The notes under the pieces are model-generated. The model was not told the origin of the DNA. It made no database searches and saw only the letters and a list, made by a program, of their open reading frames with translations. A DNA stretch of 36,975 nucleotides, taken from positions 1 through 36,975 of the forward strand of contig JAMCRO010000028.1 in the NCBI GenBank assembly GCA_023380615.1, in the 5' to 3' direction. Position numbers and translations under genes: made by a program. Shown piece after piece: positions 22,690 to 36,584 of the stretch (positions within the stretch are counted from its first letter, which is position 1; the number at the start of each line of letters is the position of its first letter). The DNA is from Candidatus Parvarchaeota archaeon (GTDB lineage Archaea; Nanobdellota; Nanobdellia; Parvarchaeales; Parvarchaeaceae).

Positions 22690-23838
22690 TTATTTATAAG
22701 TCTTTTCCAGAATTGAAGATACAGCGTTTTCTAGGTTTTTCATGAATCTTTTTTCATCGTATCTTGTTGAGTTATTTGCCCCTTTAATCAATTTTGCATA
22801 GAGTTTTTTGTCAAGCGTTCTATTGAGCGTGTCTGCTATGCTTTTTTCATCGGCGTTTACAAGTAGGCCGTTCTCTCCATTTTTTATGAATTCTCTTGGC
22901 CCTCCTTCATTCACTGATATAACCGGCTTTCCGTATGCAAGTGATTCTAAAGGAGTAAGTCCGGTGTCCTCATTTATTGCAAGGAACAAGGTAGCATAGC
23001 ATTTTCTGTAAAAATCCGTAAGCTCTTTCTCGGATAAGTTTTCCTTTATTATTACGTTTTTGCTTTCTAGTTTTTTCAGGCTTTCAAAGTATTTCTTATC
23101 TTCTGCGAAACCACCTAAAATTAATTTAAATCCGTTTTTAGGCATGTCGGAAAGATTGAATGCCTTTATTGCAAGATCTTGTCTCTTGTATTTTATGAAC
23201 CTGCTTGGATAAAAGATTATTTTTTCCGTTTTTCCGCCCTTTTTTATTTTGGAATAGTTTACGTGCGGACCAAGATTGAATATTCTCTCTTCATTTATCA
23301 GCCCATAATTCACTAACCTTTCCTTCACCTCATTGCTGAAAACCAATGCATAATCTATTTTTTTCCATGCAGATTTTTCCATTAATCTATAGAATGAAAC
23401 TATAAACGGCAAGGTTATCTTGTTTTTCATGTTTTGTCTTCTATAATATTCATACATGGTATGGGCAACTCTCAAAGGGGTATGACACATCGCAACCGTT
23501 CTCTTATGTCTATTTCTAAATGTTATAAATTCAGCTATTCCCGCAGTTGAAATCATGAATATATCGTAATCTTCTAAATTTGGTATCTTTGTCAGCAATA
23601 GCGACTTGAAAAGACTGGTTCCCCTTCCGATGAATCCCTTTGGTTCTGCATTTCCAAGTACCTTAACGTTGTATTTTCCGAAATCATCGAATGTATTTTT
23701 TTTGTCATAAAAAAACGTGAAAACATCACTTTTGTATTTTTTGTCCTCTAAGACTTTGAGAATTGCCCTCTCAACCCCTCCTTTACTTTTTATCCAGGGT
23801 ACAAATATTGCCATTTTTATTTTGTCTTTTGATACCAT
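22690..23838 (-). CDS. Glycosyltransferase family 4 (GT-B) protein
   Basis: KIIFYPSRFIKYKRQDLAIKAF; EDTGLTPLESLAYGKPVISVNEGGPREFI: GT4 E-x7-E-like motif. Confidence 0.88.
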   Translation of the reverse strand: MVSKDKIKMAIFVPWIKSKGGVERAILKVLEDKKYKSDVFTFFYDKKNTFDDFGKYNVKVLGNAEPKGFIGRGTSLFKSLLLTKIPNLEDYDIFMISTAGIAEFITFRNRHKRTVAMCHTPLRVAHTMYEYYRRQNMKNKITLPFIVSFYRLMEKSAWKKIDYALVFSNEVKERLVNYGLINEERIFNLGPHVNYSKIKKGGKTEKIIFYPSRFIKYKRQDLAIKAFNLSDMPKNGFKLILGGFAEDKKYFESLKKLESKNVIIKENLSEKELTDFYRKCYATLFLAINEDTGLTPLESLAYGKPVISVNEGGPREFIKNGENGLLVNADEKSIADTLNRTLDKKLYAKLIKGANNSTRYDEKRFMKNLENAVSSILEKTYK

Positions 23839-23875
23839 TCAATATTTAATACTTAAAAGACCAATATTAATATTT

Positions 23876-24562
23876 ATGTCATATAACAAGAAAGGGCAGT
23901 ATTCCATAGAATATACAATAATAATAGGTATTGGTATAAGCATCATAGCGGCATTTGTAATATACGTTGCACTTTTTTACGGTTCATTTGCTTCTGGTTC
24001 GGCGGCAAGCCAGATAACCACTGTATCGAGCGACCTTGCTAATGAAGTCAGCTATGTTGCTTCGCAGGGCCCTGGGTCTATGCAGGCTTTCCCCATCACT
24101 ATTCCTTTGATTCAGTCGCAGTATTCTTTTTTCTGTGGAAATCTCATAAAGCTGCAGACTACTACTGAGCTAGGCATATCCGATGCGATTGAAAACGTAT
24201 CAGGAATGCTTCCTTTATCAGGCGGTACATTCGATGCATTTGCAAGAGACGAAAATGGCAGTGCTTTGATAGGCCTTGATTTTTCAATATCTCTAATTCA
24301 ATTGACTTATTCCCTTTCTTCAAACATATTGTCTTATTCCATGTCTTTCTATAATTACTCCAATGACTTGAAGGGAACTTCTTTTAACGTAAGCCTTTTT
24401 TCTACGGACGGATTATATTTAACTAGTGTTATCGGTTCTACCAGTTCGGGCCAGGCCACAGGTACATTAACTTTGCCTTCTGCCGCTCCTAGACAGTATG
24501 TTCTTGAGGTGTACCCTACAGGATCTGGAGATTACTACTCAACATGCATCAGTGTTTCATAA
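23876..24562 (+). CDS. Archaeal type IV pilin-like protein with canonical class III signal peptide
   Basis: MSYNKKGQYSIEYTIIIGIGISIIAAFVIYVALFYG: KGQ-x-S-x-E then hydrophobic helix. ORF track start 23717 lies inside the divergent GT gene; ATG 23876 preferred. Confidence 0.8.
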   Translation: MSYNKKGQYSIEYTIIIGIGISIIAAFVIYVALFYGSFASGSAASQITTVSSDLANEVSYVASQGPGSMQAFPITIPLIQSQYSFFCGNLIKLQTTTELGISDAIENVSGMLPLSGGTFDAFARDENGSALIGLDFSISLIQLTYSLSSNILSYSMSFYNYSNDLKGTSFNVSLFSTDGLYLTSVIGSTSSGQATGTLTLPSAAPRQYVLEVYPTGSGDYYSTCISVS

Positions 24563-28533: not shown

Positions 28534-30258
28534 ATGAACATACGAGAGGTAAGCGAAATAGCAAAGAAATTAAAAGGACCAGAAACAGATCTCAATACCG
28601 TAAATAACTGGATAAAGGAGTTGGAGGCAAGGGCCTCGAGCAGTGATGCCCATTACAGGGGTGAAGTAGACTTCAGGTATGCTTCAGATGAAGAAGTGCC
28701 TAACCCGGGGTTTGTGGGCAATCCTTTGGGCTACCAGTTTACTAGAGACATATCTAAAAGGTATCATTTTCAGCCGGAATATTACTCAGTATCGCAGATG
28801 TTTGCCGCTCTTGGATACAGGAGCCTTAGAACGGCGGAAACAATAGATCCTTCCTCATTGTCAGGCCTTATGAACATGGTTTTTGAAAAAAGGAAAAACC
28901 TCCAGGACAGGGTAATGCAGCTACTGGGAAACATAAATACCGTTTTAAAGTCGATTATAGCGATAATCTACGAGCTCAAGGAGCTTGACAGGAATCTTTA
29001 TTTGTATACTGAATTAAAAGACAGTGACAAGGAGAAAGCGGAAGCAGCGGAACTTGCGCTTAAAAGGGTATTCCTGGATAACGTTGATTCAAGGAAGGGG
29101 GGAGCAAGCCTTTCGGCTCTTTCAAGATCACCTACACAAAGCCAGGGCGGTCCGGGTTTCATAGATATAATGTCTGTTTTTTACCAGGTTAAAAGCCTGA
29201 AAGACGTGCAGAACATAGAAAGAAACGAACAGTATAAGAACATATTAAAAAACAGGTATATAGAATATGAGAAGTGGAAGGAAATAAACGGCACAGATCT
29301 CAAAAACCGGAAGAGCATGCTTCTGCAGTATCTTAAAAGCCAAATGGGCTCATTTAATCTTTACGTTGACTGGTGTTCTACGGATCTTGCTCTGCTTTCA
29401 AAAATGGGTTTTGATACGGCTAAAACTGCATCAAGGTACATTACTGGGGCAGGAAAACCGGATATATTCGAGAATGAGTCTTTTTCAGTGACAGCAGTTG
29501 GCTACAGGCCGATATATACCGGAGAGTACAACGTAGAATATGCAAGATTATTCAAAAGCAAGGGGCCGGAAATACCTATAAAGGCAGAACCAAAAAGCAT
29601 AGCCGGAAACCTGGTTTCAAGGGGCTATGAAGAGCATAAAAGGTCATTCATTTATGACAGAATTAAAAAATACGGGCCCATTGTTACGGCCGCAATTAAG
29701 ATACAGATGGACTTTAAGGAAAAACCAAGCAAGGAGCCGATACAGCCGCCTTATGAAGGCACTCTTTACTTCCGCGGTTATCCCTACTGTTTTACACCGG
29801 AGGAATTTTATCTTTACAGGGAGGCACAGATTGCAAAGATACAGAAAACTGTCTTTGCATCCGTAGATCAGATTGTTTTCCATTCTCTTAATGTCATAAA
29901 AGAAGACCTGGATAAGTATGTCAAGGAAGCAGATGATGAAGAAAAGAAGAAGAAAGACAAAAAGCCGCAAAAAGACTACGCCTTTATGGATATATACAGG
30001 GCATTCAAGGACGACTTCGCAGGAATTTCAAAGTCCTTTTCAACGATCTCTTCCACCGAAAAACACAAGACAACATTTTCGGCAGAGCAGGCAGAGATAT
30101 ACGAGATGCTTGTCAATGCAAAGCGCTTTTCTTCAGCAGACATTAAAAAGGCAGTTGAAATTGGCTTGTTTATTTCAAATAACGATGCAGCATACATCTA
30201 TGATGAATTAAAGAGAAGGGGCGGACTGCTGAACTGGAAGCCTCCTTTTTCGGTTTGA
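28534..30258 (+). CDS. Hypothetical soluble 574-aa protein, first gene of a microprotein operon
   Basis: Long ORF with promoter; no TM segment or recognised family; K/E-rich linker EADDEEKKKKDKKPQKD; C-terminal wHTH-like helices possible. Confidence 0.75.
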   Translation: MNIREVSEIAKKLKGPETDLNTVNNWIKELEARASSSDAHYRGEVDFRYASDEEVPNPGFVGNPLGYQFTRDISKRYHFQPEYYSVSQMFAALGYRSLRTAETIDPSSLSGLMNMVFEKRKNLQDRVMQLLGNINTVLKSIIAIIYELKELDRNLYLYTELKDSDKEKAEAAELALKRVFLDNVDSRKGGASLSALSRSPTQSQGGPGFIDIMSVFYQVKSLKDVQNIERNEQYKNILKNRYIEYEKWKEINGTDLKNRKSMLLQYLKSQMGSFNLYVDWCSTDLALLSKMGFDTAKTASRYITGAGKPDIFENESFSVTAVGYRPIYTGEYNVEYARLFKSKGPEIPIKAEPKSIAGNLVSRGYEEHKRSFIYDRIKKYGPIVTAAIKIQMDFKEKPSKEPIQPPYEGTLYFRGYPYCFTPEEFYLYREAQIAKIQKTVFASVDQIVFHSLNVIKEDLDKYVKEADDEEKKKKDKKPQKDYAFMDIYRAFKDDFAGISKSFSTISSTEKHKTTFSAEQAEIYEMLVNAKRFSSADIKKAVEIGLFISNNDAAYIYDELKRRGGLLNWKPPFSV

Positions 30259-30260
30259 TT

Positions 30261-30434
30261 ATGAACAGCAAGGGACAGATGCCGATAACGGAGATAATAG
30301 CAATAATACTGGCAATAATAGTTTTGTTCGCGGGCATAGTAATAGCTTTGATATTTACTGGAGCAGGCTCAACTATTGCAAAGGACATGACAAGCGTTTT
30401 TTCATTTAGTTGGCTTTACGGCAAGGGAATATGA
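30261..30434 (+). CDS. Single-TM microprotein, prepilin-like N-terminus (57 aa)
   Basis: Not in ORF track. MNSKGQMPITEIIAIILAIIVLFAGIVIALIFTGAGSTIAKDMTSVFSFSWLYGKGI; 2-nt gap after upstream CDS. Confidence 0.75.
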   Translation: MNSKGQMPITEIIAIILAIIVLFAGIVIALIFTGAGSTIAKDMTSVFSFSWLYGKGI

Positions 30435-30601
30435 ATGATAAAGGTGTTGTAAGCGGCGTTTTTCTGTACATAATCCTGATAATAATAGGCATACTTCTGA
30501 TAGTGATATTTTTGGAGATTTTTACGCCATATAAATTTACGGACTTGTTTAAGGCATTCATATCAAAGTCAAACAGTTTAAATGTGAGCGGTTATGAATA
30601 A
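30431..30601 (+). CDS. Single-TM microprotein, MNxKG N-terminus (56 aa)
   Basis: MNDKGVVSGVFLYIILIIIGILLIVIFLEIFTPYKFTDLFKAFISKSNSLNVSGYE; ATGA overlap with preceding gene. Track start 30410 extended upstream. Confidence 0.75.
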   Translation: MNDKGVVSGVFLYIILIIIGILLIVIFLEIFTPYKFTDLFKAFISKSNSLNVSGYE

Positions 30602-30734
30602 TAAAGGAGTGGAAAGCTACATTCTTCTGATAATAATAACGCTGGTAGTTCTAATACTGATAATAGTCTTTTATCTGTTTCTGTTCTCACCAAGCACCAT
30701 ACATAAGCTTATACCTACGGTTCCAAGCATATAG
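30594..30734 (+). CDS. Single-TM microprotein, MNxKG N-terminus (46 aa)
   Basis: Not in ORF track. MNNKGVESYILLIIITLVVLILIIVFYLFLFSPSTIHKLIPTVPSI; 8-nt overlap with preceding gene. Confidence 0.7.
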   Translation: MNNKGVESYILLIIITLVVLILIIVFYLFLFSPSTIHKLIPTVPSI

Positions 30735-30735
30735 C

Positions 30736-30897
30736 ATGGAATCTGTCTGGTTTTATGTCATAGCCGTTATCTTGGGAATAACGCTGCTTTTAGTCTATAT
30801 GTTTTTGGTGGGCCCTGCAGCGCTTTCTAAGGACATATCCGGCTTTTTTTCCGGTATTAGCTCTTCAATAACGGCAGGTTTCAAGAACGCATATTAA
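30736..30897 (+). CDS. Single-TM microprotein (53 aa)
   Basis: Not in ORF track. MESVWFYVIAVILGITLLLVYMFLVGPAALSKDISGFFSGISSSITAGFKNAY; starts 1 nt after preceding stop. Confidence 0.65.
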   Translation: MESVWFYVIAVILGITLLLVYMFLVGPAALSKDISGFFSGISSSITAGFKNAY

Positions 30898-30929: not shown

Positions 30930-31505
30930 ATGATTACTTACAGCGAATTTCTAAGGATAAGAAGGCAAGAGCAGGAGGACAACAGGACGCTGACAAAGTT
31001 CAATGATGACATGCTTGAAGAGATGAAGGAATACATAGCCATAAACAAAAACTCATTGGAAGAAGCGAAGAAAATGAACGATGAGAAAAAATCAGAGGAG
31101 ATATCCACGCAGATAAAAAATGCAATATCCACACTGGAACAGATAATAAATTTGAGGATGATTAAGATAGCAGGCATGGCAATACTTGATGCAGATAGTG
31201 AACAGGCAAAGACAAACATGCTTTCCAAGGAGATAATCTTTTTTGACAATCTGCTCACTCTTTCAAAGCAGTACAAATCAGGGATAATAACAGAGGTTAA
31301 GTCCATAGAGCCGAAGAAACTGCAGAAAGTAGAGAGCAACGATAGTGAAAGCGAAAAAATCGTTATAAAGATACTTTCTGACATACCCAAATTTGTTTGG
31401 AGAAACGACAAATCCTACGGGCCTTTCAGTTTCCCTAACGTAATAGAAATAGACAAGGACGTAGCGCAGATACTCATAAAGAGCGGAAAAGCCGAGAGCG
31501 TGTAA
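30930..31505 (+). CDS. DNA replication factor GINS (archaeal Gins51/Gins15-like)
   Basis: Helical A domain plus C-terminal B domain IVIKILSDIPKFVWRNDKSYGPFSFPNVIEIDKDVAQILIKSGKAE, typical of GINS. Confidence 0.82.
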   Translation: MITYSEFLRIRRQEQEDNRTLTKFNDDMLEEMKEYIAINKNSLEEAKKMNDEKKSEEISTQIKNAISTLEQIINLRMIKIAGMAILDADSEQAKTNMLSKEIIFFDNLLTLSKQYKSGIITEVKSIEPKKLQKVESNDSESEKIVIKILSDIPKFVWRNDKSYGPFSFPNVIEIDKDVAQILIKSGKAESV

Positions 31506-33032
31506 ATGACCCTTTTCAAGGAAAAGATAGAAGACCGAGAATACCAGAATAATATATTTGAGACTGCAAAGACCGGCAACACTCTTGTTGTACTGCCAAC
31601 CGGTCTGGGGAAAACTATAATAAGCGCCATGCTTGTTGATTACAGGCTGGAAAAATATCCTTCCTCAAAGGTTCTTTTCTTGGCGCCGACGAAGCCGCTT
31701 GCAAACCAGCATTACAAGACATTTTCTTCATTGCTTGAAGTAAATTCAAGCATAGTCAGCGGTTCGGTGTCCAGCAGCAAAAGAAGCAAAATATACGAAG
31801 ATGCACAGCTGATATTCGCAACACCCCAAACTATAGAGAACGACATGGCAAAAAAGATCATAGACTTCTCGAATTTCAGCCTGCTTATAGTGGATGAAGC
31901 TCACCACACAATAGGGAATTACTCCTATGTAAAAATAGCGAAAGCATACTCTGAGCAGTCTATTCATCCAATCATACTTGGACTTACTGCTTCTCCTGCA
32001 TCGGACAGGGAAAAGATAAAGACGATATGCAGCAATTTGCAGATAAGCAACGTAGAGATAAGATCAGATGATGATCCAGATGTTATACCCTACATACAGA
32101 AAAAAGACATAGAAGAGATAAAGGTTGACCTTCCGCAGGAAATGCTAGAACTTGCCAACAATGTAAAGCTGCTTATAAGCGAATCCATAAGCGAATTGCA
32201 GGAGATAGGCCTGCTGAAAAACGTGCAGAAAACAAGGATAAACCGGATTACTATCCTTATGCTGCAGAAAAGCCTTCAGAGGCAGATGTTCAGCGGAAAA
32301 AGGACTTATTACCTTATCAGAGGGATAATACTGACTTCAAAGCTTTTGAAGCTATATCATTCTTATAATTTGTTATCAACGCAGAGCCTTGCAGCGTTTT
32401 ATAATTTCTTGGAGAAGATACAAAACGGAAAGGCAAAGACTGACAAGGATCTTTCTTCAAACAAAAGGTTCATTGAAATAAAAGAGAGAACTAAAGAATT
32501 GCTGGACAGCGGGATGGAGCATCCAAAGCTTGAACAGCTTCAAATCATATTCACAAATTATTTTAACGAATCAAAAAAAGCCATAGTGTTTGCACAGTAC
32601 AGGGATACAGTAGACATAATATATAATAGCATATCTACGATAGAAGGCATAAGGCCAATAAAATTTATCGGCCAGGGAAAGGGGGGGTTGTCGCAGAAAG
32701 AGCAGGTCAACATAATAAGCGATTTTGAATCGGGAATATACAATGTGCTTGTTTCAACAAGTGTCAGCGAAGAAGGAATGTCTATAAAAGGCGTTGATCT
32801 TGCTGTGTTTTATGAAACAATACCAAGTGCAATAAGAAACATACAAAGAAGGGGAAGGGTGGGGAGGTTCTCTGCAGGCAGGATATTCATACTGATTACA
32901 AGGGGAACAAACGACGAGGGTTATTATTGGCTTTCAAAAAGAAGAGAAAAGAGCATGAAAAGAATCATAAAAAACATAAAGGAAAATCCGGATACAATAA
33001 AGCAGGATGGTACATTGCATCCGTTTGTCTAA
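31506..33032 (+). CDS. hef: Hef/FANCM-type SF2 helicase lacking the ERCC4 nuclease domain
   Basis: VVLPTGLGKTIIS, LAPTKPLANQHY, LLIVDEAHHTIGNYSYVKIA, ILGLTASPA, IVFAQYRDTVDII, VSTSVSEEGMSIKGVDLAVFYE, RNIQRRGRVGR; ends after the helicase core. Confidence 0.9.
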   Translation: MTLFKEKIEDREYQNNIFETAKTGNTLVVLPTGLGKTIISAMLVDYRLEKYPSSKVLFLAPTKPLANQHYKTFSSLLEVNSSIVSGSVSSSKRSKIYEDAQLIFATPQTIENDMAKKIIDFSNFSLLIVDEAHHTIGNYSYVKIAKAYSEQSIHPIILGLTASPASDREKIKTICSNLQISNVEIRSDDDPDVIPYIQKKDIEEIKVDLPQEMLELANNVKLLISESISELQEIGLLKNVQKTRINRITILMLQKSLQRQMFSGKRTYYLIRGIILTSKLLKLYHSYNLLSTQSLAAFYNFLEKIQNGKAKTDKDLSSNKRFIEIKERTKELLDSGMEHPKLEQLQIIFTNYFNESKKAIVFAQYRDTVDIIYNSISTIEGIRPIKFIGQGKGGLSQKEQVNIISDFESGIYNVLVSTSVSEEGMSIKGVDLAVFYETIPSAIRNIQRRGRVGRFSAGRIFILITRGTNDEGYYWLSKRREKSMKRIIKNIKENPDTIKQDGTLHPFV

Positions 33033-33502
33033 CTTCCGAAAATCTCAGTTTCGCACGTCCCACCAGGAGAGTACTTCACCCCGTCTATGGAAACATTGCT
33101 TCCAGAGGTATTCCCTATGATTACAGTGTTTATGCTAGGATCAATGATTGTTATATCCGTTGAAAGTGAATTTATGCCTGCTGTATAGTTACCTATCACT
33201 GATAAAGATGAAGGGTCACTTTTAGCAGTATTGCTTACAAATACCGTGTAAATCAATCCAGGGCTGCCGTCTGATACCGTTATTTTAAAGGTGTTCTGTT
33301 TAGAAGGCGTGCTTACATTTGTAACATTTGCAGAGCATGCTACAGGAGAACCGCTTCCGCTTGTTATTAACCCGGAAGGGAGAATAGCAAAATGGAAGAC
33401 AGAGCTTGCAATTACAACCCCTATCACTAGAAATGCAATAAGTAGTATTACGACTATGAAATACTCTACAGCGCTTGCACCCTTCATTTCGTAACTGCGC
33501 AT
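33029..33502 (-). CDS. Type IV pilin-like protein (class III signal peptide-like)
   Basis: MRSYEMKGASAVEYFIVVILLIAFLVIGVVIASSVF: KG|ASAVE with Glu at +5; 2 Cys. ATG at 33502 preferred over track start 33595. Confidence 0.72.
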   Translation of the reverse strand: MRSYEMKGASAVEYFIVVILLIAFLVIGVVIASSVFHFAILPSGLITSGSGSPVACSANVTNVSTPSKQNTFKITVSDGSPGLIYTVFVSNTAKSDPSSLSVIGNYTAGINSLSTDITIIDPSINTVIIGNTSGSNVSIDGVKYSPGGTCETEIFGS

Positions 33503-34959
33503 ATGTAGATTAAATTCCTCCCCAAAAAGTTTGGTTTTGATATTCCTATCTGCTGAGGCAGAGAAGCAAAGAAGTAGAATAAAGACTGTGCGCATTGTTC
33601 TAAGCCCGTAGCATACAAAGCCGAATAAGCAAGTTTCCCTGTGTATGTAAGCACGTTAGGTGCAACGTCATCCTTGCACACCGTATTGTTAAAGCATTCT
33701 GCAGCTCCAAATCCCGCAAGTGCTGTTCCAACCACCAATCCGGGATTTGATGGCGCAAGAAGGTCTGCACCTATACCAGATACAACTGCCCTTGAGCACT
33801 CGTCCTCTATACCGGCATTCGGATAATTGTTAAGAAATGTTGCAGGTTCACATTCACTTGGCAGACTTATCGAGCTTGGCGGAAATCTTGTTCCAACTAG
33901 TGAATTAAGGTAAACTATGTATATTTGTGCGTTGTTTATCGACTTGCTACTGTTTGGAAATACAAACCCACTATCACTTGAATTACTCACATTTTTATAG
34001 CTGAATATAACATTGTCACCGGGTTTTAGATAATCTGCATATGATTCATTTATTATTGAGGTGCTTTTTACCGGTTCTGTTAATACGCAAGAGGAAGGAG
34101 CTTCGTATGAATCTGTTGTAGAATCATAGCCTACCGTGCAGTTGTTACCATTGCAGAAATTGGTGTAAAGATCCGTACACGACGCAATGTTTCCGCTTGG
34201 AGTTGAGCAAGTTCCTAGAGTAGTGTTGAAAGAACAACCTTGCGATGCTTCGCAAAGATAACTGGAAAGATTCATCGCAGCAGTAGGCGCTTTAGATCCA
34301 TTCAATGGTATGTACTTTGTTGCATATCCTTGTGTAAATGCAGTGTAACCTGACTGGCTTCTGCAACTGAAGTAATTTGTTGATGGGGCCTCACATAAAC
34401 TTGGCTCGCTTAAATCACATGAATATCCATTTAAATTTGAGCTTGTCAATGGGTCTGAGCAGGACTGAATGGCAGTGTGGTTAAGGCAGCTCACCTCCGT
34501 CGTATAAGCATTTGTCTCAAGATAATTTGTAAGGTTGTTTATAGTTATGTTCTGGTTTATGTTTACGTCTACTACAGAGCATGTTGCAGGTGAACTAGTT
34601 AGTACAGTAAGTCCTTGGTTTGCCCCATACTGATTCCAGCAGCTTGTAAGGTCTGTCCCTACAGTTGAAAATACCTGGGAAGGTTGGGAACCTGGGCCGT
34701 ATCCAGAGGTTGCAGTGGTACAACCGAAAAGCGGTGGCGCTATGCCAACTGCTTTAAGCGTGCTGCTTAAGCAGAAGAAATTCGATACACATAACCCATT
34801 ATAATAGAAATTGGTGAATTCAGAGCTCACATAGCAGATACCGCTGTTTGAAAGATTTACTCCTACCAATAAAAGATATCCTGCGATAGCAACTATGACT
34901 ATTATGAATATCACTGCCAAAACTATAAATATAAAGCTCTCTCCAGGAGTCTCTGCCAT
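33484..34959 (-). CDS. Cys-rich (24 Cys) single-TM-anchored surface protein
   Basis: N-terminal TM ESFIFIVLAVIFIIVIVAIAGYLLLVGV, then a large Ser/Asn/Cys-rich ectodomain with N-glycosylation sequons. Confidence 0.72.
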   Translation of the reverse strand: MAETPGESFIFIVLAVIFIIVIVAIAGYLLLVGVNLSNSGICYVSSEFTNFYYNGLCVSNFFCLSSTLKAVGIAPPLFGCTTATSGYGPGSQPSQVFSTVGTDLTSCWNQYGANQGLTVLTSSPATCSVVDVNINQNITINNLTNYLETNAYTTEVSCLNHTAIQSCSDPLTSSNLNGYSCDLSEPSLCEAPSTNYFSCRSQSGYTAFTQGYATKYIPLNGSKAPTAAMNLSSYLCEASQGCSFNTTLGTCSTPSGNIASCTDLYTNFCNGNNCTVGYDSTTDSYEAPSSCVLTEPVKSTSIINESYADYLKPGDNVIFSYKNVSNSSDSGFVFPNSSKSINNAQIYIVYLNSLVGTRFPPSSISLPSECEPATFLNNYPNAGIEDECSRAVVSGIGADLLAPSNPGLVVGTALAGFGAAECFNNTVCKDDVAPNVLTYTGKLAYSALYATGLEQCAQSLFYFFASLPQQIGISKPNFLGRNLIYICAVTK

Positions 34960-35020
34960 TAATTAAGTAGTGTTTTCATGGAATAAATTAATATCCAATC
35001 CGTCTTTGAATAAGGTTGGC

Positions 35021-35911
35021 TTATTGATTGGGTATGCATACGAATACCCTGCTTTGACTGTAAATCATGTAGTTGCTTAACTTTCCGCATAGAGGCACAT
35101 AATAATTACAGCCGCTGGTCTCATTTACAACATTTAAAGAGGGATTGCCATTGCTGAGAGAGCTTACGGTTTCCTCGCTTTGATTTACTGTTTCATTTGA
35201 ATAGGCGCATACCGATATGTCATTGATTATAGGCTGCTGGTACCGGGCAGTGTATTCGCATTGGTCTACAAAGCTTATTTCACAGTTTTTTATTCCGTTT
35301 GAGGGGTATTCAAAGTAAGTAACTGTATAGCTGGAATTTGAAAGGTTATCCGATGGCTTTATGTATGCTGCGTTTCCATTGCTCCCGTTTGTTATGAAAA
35401 CAACCTGCAGAGGATAGCTGCCGTTGTAATTGCTGTCAATGTAGCTTATTACTGCTGAATAGTTTACATTGCTGCTTTGACTGATCAAAGACCCTTTATA
35501 ACAGTTGAATATCTGGTCCAGGTTTTTAGCCGAAATGATCTGTGAGCCGATGCCGGCGTTTCCGCCCGAAAACAAGCTGAAGCAGGAAGACGCTTCCGTA
35601 TAAAATGAAGAAGCAAAATCAGCTGTTGTTTTTTCATTAATGTTTGCGGTCTGAAGGCAGTCTTTTTGTACCTGTGCTGACTGTGTGGGGCTTACAACTA
35701 TATTTGAAAGGCCAAATGCCGAAGTTACGCTGGTGAAAGGAGATAAAAAGCTGTTTACTATTTTATATTGTGTGAAGGCAGTAAAGCAGCTGATTCCAAA
35801 GCTTAGCGTCCCGAAAGATGTTATTATCGAAAATGAAACTACTGCCAGTATTATTCCTGCTATTATCACAAAGATAACGAATACTATTGTAAGCAGTATC
35901 CCCTCCTCCAT
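35021..35911 (-). CDS. Cys-containing (10 Cys) single-TM-anchored surface protein
   Basis: N-term MEEGILLTIVFVIFVIIAGIILAVVSFSIIT; ectodomain with many N-x-S/T sites. Confidence 0.72.
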   Translation of the reverse strand: MEEGILLTIVFVIFVIIAGIILAVVSFSIITSFGTLSFGISCFTAFTQYKIVNSFLSPFTSVTSAFGLSNIVVSPTQSAQVQKDCLQTANINEKTTADFASSFYTEASSCFSLFSGGNAGIGSQIISAKNLDQIFNCYKGSLISQSSNVNYSAVISYIDSNYNGSYPLQVVFITNGSNGNAAYIKPSDNLSNSSYTVTYFEYPSNGIKNCEISFVDQCEYTARYQQPIINDISVCAYSNETVNQSEETVSSLSNGNPSLNVVNETSGCNYYVPLCGKLSNYMIYSQSRVFVCIPNQ

Positions 35912-36073
35912 TCAGGAACCTCCTCCGAGAAGATTTCCAAAATAAGAAAACGGAGAGCTGCTGTGGGAGCTGGCATAAAATAAAATCACTATAAGACCTA
36001 TGGCTGCCAGGGCCGTTATTATAACAAGCATTATCCAGATAAGACGCCATTCTACGCTTCCTTTATTATCCAT
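35912..36073 (-). CDS. Single-TM microprotein, MDNKG N-terminus (53 aa)
   Basis: Not in ORF track in this frame. MDNKGSVEWRLIWIMLVIITALAAIGLIVILFYASSHSSSPFSYFGNLLGGGS; abuts neighbours on both sides. Confidence 0.7.
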   Translation of the reverse strand: MDNKGSVEWRLIWIMLVIITALAAIGLIVILFYASSHSSSPFSYFGNLLGGGS

Positions 36074-36074
36074 A

Positions 36075-36584
36075 TCACTGACCTACGCATGCCGGGCAGT
36101 AAGGGCCGTCTCCAGATATGCATGCTGTAACGTTTATTGCGCAATTCTGTATGTCCGTAGCGTTGTCTGCTACTATATTGCTTTCCGAACAACTAAATAA
36201 ATCAGCAGTGTTTGTAGGTGAAACCACGCTGCATGTACTGGTTATATTGGCAGGCGGGCTTGCTATGCAGTCCTGCACTGCAGATTCGCTCCCTTGGCCA
36301 TTTGTCCACAGATCATAGTAGCACCAATGCCTTATGCATGTCTGCTGCGCTGTGGCCGCATTATAACAAGCGTTTTCATCATAACAGCGGAAAAGCGTTG
36401 TACCCTCCATCCTGTTTGCATATCCATATTCTGCGCTTGTAAACTGATTTTGCAGCAAAGCCGTTGAAGAATCGCAGCCTATGGGAAAAATGGAAGAGTA
36501 ATTATTGTAAAAAAGGAAAAACATTGTGAGGGCTATTACTATGCCGATAAGCACTTCAAAGAAAAGAAACTGTTCAACATCCAT
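36075..36584 (-). CDS. Cys-rich (12 Cys) single-TM-anchored surface protein
   Basis: N-term MDVEQFLFFEVLIGIVIALTMFFLFY, Cys-rich ectodomain ending YCPACVGQ. Confidence 0.72.
   Translation of the reverse strand: MDVEQFLFFEVLIGIVIALTMFFLFYNNYSSIFPIGCDSSTALLQNQFTSAEYGYANRMEGTTLFRCYDENACYNAATAQQTCIRHWCYYDLWTNGQGSESAVQDCIASPPANITSTCSVVSPTNTADLFSCSESNIVADNATDIQNCAINVTACISGDGPYCPACVGQ

Follow-up and report, generated by a model that had tools for sequence, protein, structure and literature searches.

The window, meaning the whole 36,975-nucleotide stretch of DNA that was analysed, carries on its forward strand four very short genes, here called A through D, which stand in tandem between a gene for a 574-aa orphan protein and a replication gene:

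28534..30258, + strand: 574-aa orphan, a neighbour by inversion and not shown to be a member of the set
30261..30434, + strand: microprotein A, 57 aa, ATG start, MNSKG/QMPITEIIAI..., one transmembrane (TM) helix (the slash marks the presumed cleavage site)
30431..30601, + strand: microprotein B, 56 aa, ATG start, MNDKG/VVSG...
30594..30734, + strand: microprotein C, 46 aa, ATG start, MNNKG/VESY...
30736..30897, + strand: microprotein D, 53 aa, ATG start, MESVWFYVIA...VGP...
30930..31505, + strand: Gins51-type replication protein (Pfam PF22090), adjoining D in nearly all relatives inspected

A preliminary description had reported four tandem ORFs of 57, 56, 46 and 53 aa, and re-reading proved it exact to the base: a 2-nt gap separates the stop of the 574-aa gene (30258) from A, A and B share a 4-nt ATGA overlap, B and C overlap by 8 nt, and C and D are 1 nt apart. 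The ORF listing gives A and B as longest ORFs from upstream TTG codons (at 30255 and 30410, respectively), rather than from the ATG codons that are kept in relatives. Also as described, each protein consists mainly of a single, highly hydrophobic helix, its best 19-residue stretch averaging 2.8-3.6 on the Kyte-Doolittle scale, and three of the four, A, B and C, open with M-N-[SDN]-K-G. At 46-57 aa an ectodomain is almost absent: A, which is single-copy in the family, ends in a conserved SFSWL[YF]G, B continues after its TM helix with FTPYK and a short amphipathic stretch, and C has an FSP...P..P tail. ORFs this short escape annotation, and A through D were overlooked by gene-finding.

These ORFs are confirmed as real genes under purifying selection that are inherited as a set. 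The profile of A returns one strong match per genome in all 32 family genomes, all relatives inspected (Candidatus Parvarchaeota/Acidifodinimicrobium) have A-B-C-D together and in that order, and all four microproteins are held by 22 of 22 named relatives fetched with that profile, a sample comprising Candidatus Parvarchaeota, Nanoarchaeota and Candidatus Acidifodinimicrobium mancum of which several overlap with the family-search genomes. Through most of the genus the same four frames follow the 574-aa gene in the same order, with junctions of -8 to +9 except for one 185-nt gap ahead of D, and after D there usually come a Gins51-type gene and a Hef-like helicase. In genomes where the 574-aa gene is not followed by A-D (G001-G003, G013/G014, G031), A lies elsewhere, and in those read (G001-G003, G013, G031) it again forms part of A-B-C-D, away from the 574-aa gene. 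The frames persist even in relatives whose amino-acid identity has fallen to about 35-55%, and among the closest eight genomes the median dN/dS is 0.052 for A, 0.063 for B, 0.060 for C and 0.076 for D, against 1.8-2.3 in the shifted-frame control. The earlier suggestion that the ORFs are real and form a set, for which frame conservation and dN/dS on homologous operons had been named beforehand as tests, thus survives both. That they are chance ORFs within a hydrophobic-coding stretch, for which their small size and nothing further speaks, is refuted by the same data and can be set aside, as in 60 third-order Markov shuffles the chains of coupled, ATG-started and TM-helix-bearing ORFs of 40-65 aa never exceeded one member, against four in the window.

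The leaders of A, B and C had been likened to an archaeal prepilin-peptidase site, and this resemblance is strengthened by the wider sample: the presumed -1 residue, usually behind Lys or Arg, is Gly or Ala in 92 of 92 leader-bearing A-D sequences (A 26/26, B 26/26, C 25/25, leader-bearing D 15/15). As in pilins, a short, mostly hydrophilic or basic leader ending in Gly (Gly, Ala or Ser in archaea) is present in A, B, C and the leader-bearing D, though not in window D, and a hydrophobic stretch of about 20 residues lies directly behind the presumed cleavage site in A-D. In the window's clade D no longer has a leader (MESVWFYVIA vs MLRLNKKG/ITEATIYYIIA in other relatives), although its mature part, with an invariant Glu, is kept. 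Glu at position +5 of the mature type IV filament subunit is almost invariable. In the window it is missing, A having Glu at +6, B none, C Glu at +2, and D being leaderless. The absence of Glu+5 noted earlier therefore holds for the window copies but not for the wider group, in which the most divergent A ortholog (G031) reads MKG/DAISE, with Glu+5, and an acidic residue occupies +5 in 7 of 15 A-like proteins of other families. Against Pfam, including the class III signal model PF04021 and other pilin models, A-D gave no match at or near cut-off, and Pfam, NCBIfam, PHROGs and PDB sequence searches with A-D, the 574-aa protein and the surface proteins, each run against some or all of these libraries, returned nothing usable; weak Pfam matches of A-C to oleosin and viral TM proteins (E 0.02-0.9) were dismissed as generic TM similarity. 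Because the window copies lack Glu+5 and no family model matches, we call A-D pilin-like and not pilins. Family genomes also hold, singly, stand-alone TM proteins of the form MKGQ[GE]LPI... with a short Cys-containing ectodomain, which are distant relatives of A (L129-L136).

The same N termini could belong to small, uncleaved membrane subunits of a surface or secretion complex, K-[GA] being a mere positive-inside anchor and no filament being formed. This alternative we regard as unlikely, though it deserves weight: it accommodates the missing Glu+5 in the window copies, the leaderless D of one clade, the tiny ectodomains, and the way in which the TM helix of B, C and D gives way to a conserved Pro and then to an amphipathic stretch. 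It does not account for the alternation of Gly and Ala at -1 without exception, which is expected of prepilin-peptidase specificity and not of a mere anchor, and it sits poorly with the acidic +5 residues of G031 and the A-like proteins and with the linkage to pilus-type machinery and to the peptidase described below.

Further evidence comes from a second array in the window, convergent to A-D:

33029..33487, - strand: pilin-like surface protein, about 152 aa, probable start MKG/ASAVEYFIVVI at 33487
33484..34959, - strand: 491-aa Cys-rich surface protein with an N-terminal TM helix anchor, MAET.GE
35021..35911, - strand: 296-aa N-terminally anchored surface protein, a member of the A-D operon in G031, G003 and G013
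35912..36073, - strand: fifth microprotein, 53 aa, MDNKG/SVEWRLIWIM..., heading the operon in G031 and G003
36075..36584, - strand: 169-aa protein with an N-terminal TM helix, head of the minus-strand array and a probable member

The first of these has a canonical class III pilin signal with Glu+5 (MKG/ASAVEY), the longest ORF (33029-33595) starting too far upstream; its gene overlaps the 491-aa gene by ATGA, and its ortholog lies directly upstream of A in G031, G001, G002, G003 and G013. Orthologs of the 491-aa protein share 30-44% identity, an invariant MAET.GE start and many invariant Cys, and this family shares an operon with A-D in G031, G002, G003 and G013. Its AlphaFold model (pLDDT 66, pTM 0.46), for which no solved relative was found, opens with long helices at residues 5-35 and 38-55 and then has a beta-rich part, a prediction compatible with a pilin-type architecture but not proof of it. 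For the 169-aa protein no counterpart was found in the G031 operon. No sugar-binding domain was recognised in the surface proteins, nor any family match for them or for A-D. Elsewhere in the window, the ORF at 23717-24562 (+ strand), whose true start probably lies downstream of the listed GTG, has an internal start, MSYNKKGQYSIEYTIII, with a canonical archaeal class III pilin signal (KKG/QYSIEY).

In early-branching genomes, A-D close a larger operon encoding surface proteins that are anchored at the N terminus. On one strand, G031 (L099), which has diverged furthest within the family, encodes a KASTEW microprotein, anchored proteins of 307 and 496 aa, a 146-aa pilin-like protein, A-B-C-D, Gins51 and the helicase; G003 has this order through Gins51, and in G002 and G013 the matching stretch likewise finishes with A-D, Gins51 and helicase. 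The four convergent genes at 33029-36073 of the window are orthologous to those of the ancestral operon, and in G002 and G013 the 574-aa gene is convergent toward the helicase end of the surface-protein/A-D operon. Inverting the segment from helicase to A gives the window order exactly, so that the adjacency of A to the 574-aa gene is secondary; as read from gene order, an inversion within one genus put A-D there. The Gins51-type gene is probably co-transcribed with D and would not be part of the machine.

This gene order bears directly on the earlier proposal that A-D work with the 574-aa protein, for example as a membrane ring for it. Immediate adjacency in most of the genus invites such a partnership, but we now hold it to be very improbable, and the ring was rejected on gene order. 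G031, G001-G003 and G013/G014 have A-D behind the surface-protein operon, with the 574-aa gene convergent or on another contig, and the window order is that arrangement with one inverted segment. Moreover, the 574-aa family, matched in 32 of 32 family genomes searched, is distributed separately, in 241 of 282 phylum genomes and beside quite different genes (nucleotidyltransferase, ~200-aa protein, TIM-barrel-domain protein), and its AlphaFold model (pLDDT 68, pTM 0.52) showed no solved relative and no recognisable fold. On these grounds the protein is not counted in the set. At L081-L095 its gene is usually followed by those for a ~200-aa charged protein and a ~550-700-aa AP_endonuc_2/TIM-barrel protein, often near a nucleotidyltransferase.

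A prepilin peptidase (PF01478) occurs in 30 of 32 family genomes; that of the window's own genome (L122) sits among KG-anchored surface proteins and has intact catalytic motifs, D-x-K-x-R-x-VP and GxGD (DFKNREVP, GGGD), and in G001 and G003, of the neighbouring genus, ~4 kb separates the peptidase gene from D, a stretch that encodes two KG-anchored proteins and Gins51. An assembly ATPase (PF00437) is found in 31 of 32, and two pilus-type systems are present in the family, one made of ATPase1 (~510 aa) and two TadC-like proteins, the other of ATPase2 (~750 aa; own copy E 4.5e-17) and TadC2 (~705 aa). TadC2 gave no match in a single-sequence Pfam scan, and profile comparison relates it to the family's T2SSF proteins with a probability of 96.9%. 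This platform is present in 276 of 282 genomes, and ATPase2/TadC2 are so nearly universal that presence or absence is uninformative. In the window's own genome a secreted subtilase-type protease (Peptidase_S8; L121, 3393-10177 of contig C35) is encoded directly upstream of ATPase2/TadC2, and a comparable large secreted protein occupies that position in G018.

Within the window's own family, A-D do not adjoin ATPase2/TadC2. The profile of A also matches 50-58-aa ORFs in many other families, and many loci fetched solely for these matches carry TadC2 orthologs, plus ATPase2 if the contig extends far enough; ATPase2 and TadC2 of the window's own genome match the orthologs in those operons with E about 1e-226 and 1e-104. 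Behind ATPase2/TadC2 there stand an A-like 50-aa ORF and 8-10 further N-terminally anchored proteins, mostly with K[GA] leaders, the order in G103 being ATPase2, TadC2, a 292-aa protein, the A-like 50-aa ORF, a run of anchored proteins and an OB-fold replication protein. An A match lies within 10 kb of TadC2 in 18 of the 48 genomes for which positions of both were listed and transcribed by hand (binomial P about 1e-15 at p = 0.03). D-like ORFs follow the A-like ones in G102 and G174, with a 491-aa homolog ahead of them in G102, and B and C have no clear counterparts outside the family. The A-like matches call for caution, being short and hydrophobic with weak single E-values, and the argument rests on their co-location; a complete 668,961-base genome has several short KG-type TM ORFs near its A-like matches and no TadC2 nearby. 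Across the class there are long operons for about ten proteins each, all anchored at the N terminus and mostly with K[GA] leaders (L169, L171, L174, L175, L179, L180, L188); they include KGQGLPM-type Cys-containing proteins, many lie near TadC2 and several beside an OB-fold replication protein, and A-D are a small part of this class-wide repertoire.

A-D might instead serve the ATPase1 system with its two TadC-like proteins, which is present in most family genomes. We give this hardly any credence: G006, 98% complete, has ATPase2/TadC2 only, with no second ATPase/platform system, and has kept A-D, which favours ATPase2/TadC2 as the motor, and the linkage outside the family points the same way.

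Taken together, frame conservation, the fixed set and order, Gly or Ala at -1, the ancestral operon, the peptidase and the linkage to ATPase2/TadC2 make it probable, in our judgement, that A-D are single-helix pilin-like subunits of a Nanobdellota type-IV-filament-like machine. Against this reading stand the lack of ATPase2/TadC2 adjacency in the family, the window copies without Glu+5, the leaderless D of the window and the tiny ectodomains. In such a machine, positive-inside considerations and the KG motif suggest that A-D would be inserted with the short basic leader in the cytoplasm, and the genome's prepilin peptidase would remove the leader behind Gly or Ala. The exposed N-terminal helices could then pack against each other and against those of the larger surface proteins encoded at 33029-36584, the ancestral operon genes, into a short membrane-rooted filament or pseudopilus-like core. 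Assembly would be driven by the ~750-aa ATPase2 and the ~705-aa TadC-like platform, whose gene linkage to A-like microproteins is shown in other families, and the large Cys-rich proteins may form the outer, possibly host- or surface-binding part.

If this is correct, subunits of a near-universal machine of the phylum could have gone unnoticed as short ORFs. Nano-archaea that depend on a host use structures without known proteins to attach to other archaea and to feed on them; cryo-tomography of Nanobdellota has revealed such an attachment organelle, a host-contact structure with a tube or filament and no known proteins (PMC11420986, PMC11104419). That A-D, the anchored surface proteins and ATPase2/TadC2, which belong to the same phylum, build this organelle or tube, as a type-IV-filament machine rebuilt around microprotein subunits and carried by nearly the whole phylum, is a bolder proposition, to which we assign a low probability. 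The conserved order does supply a concrete candidate set (five microproteins, four surface proteins, ATPase2, TadC2 and the peptidase) with which the attachment question becomes testable. Literature searches, which covered open-licence papers, returned no description of the A-D gene set, and an earlier description is possible.

Among known systems, archaeal type IV pili resemble the present one in the basic leader ending in Gly or Ala, the hydrophobic helix, and a genome with peptidase, ATPase and TadC-like platform (PMC4858521, PMC4471445). They differ in that A-D are several distinct co-encoded microproteins of 46-57 aa with practically no ectodomain, that the window copies lack Glu+5 and any family match, and that the ATPase here is enlarged (~750 aa) and the platform a single ~705-aa protein. 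The excerpted text of an archaeal T4P census describes small major pilins (~70 aa) in clade 1 and, as far as it extends, shows no DPANN lineage beyond Nanoarchaeota (PMC4858521), for which two T4P systems have been reported in addition to the archaellum (PMC6142677). The Sulfolobus bindosome assembly system (Bas) likewise has several pilin-type genes per locus, class III signals, an ATPase and a TadC-like platform, and its surface proteins themselves bear class III signals; Bas pilins are of the PilA family (PMC4858521), whereas A-D are microproteins that matched no family. In addition, Bas surface proteins are sugar-binding, while those encoded here are Cys-rich with no recognised function or sugar-binding domain. 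Finally, A-D recall two bacterial groups in being a set of co-encoded small subunits. Minor pseudopilins of the bacterial T2SS are likewise small, encoded side by side and presumed to prime a short filament, and Tad Flp prepilins are very small and carry a G-x4-E-Y signal. No sequence relation of A-D to either was found, nor any secretin context, and the Flp signal, absent from A-D, is present in the pilin-like protein of their ancestral operon, at 33029-33487 (MKG/ASAVEY).
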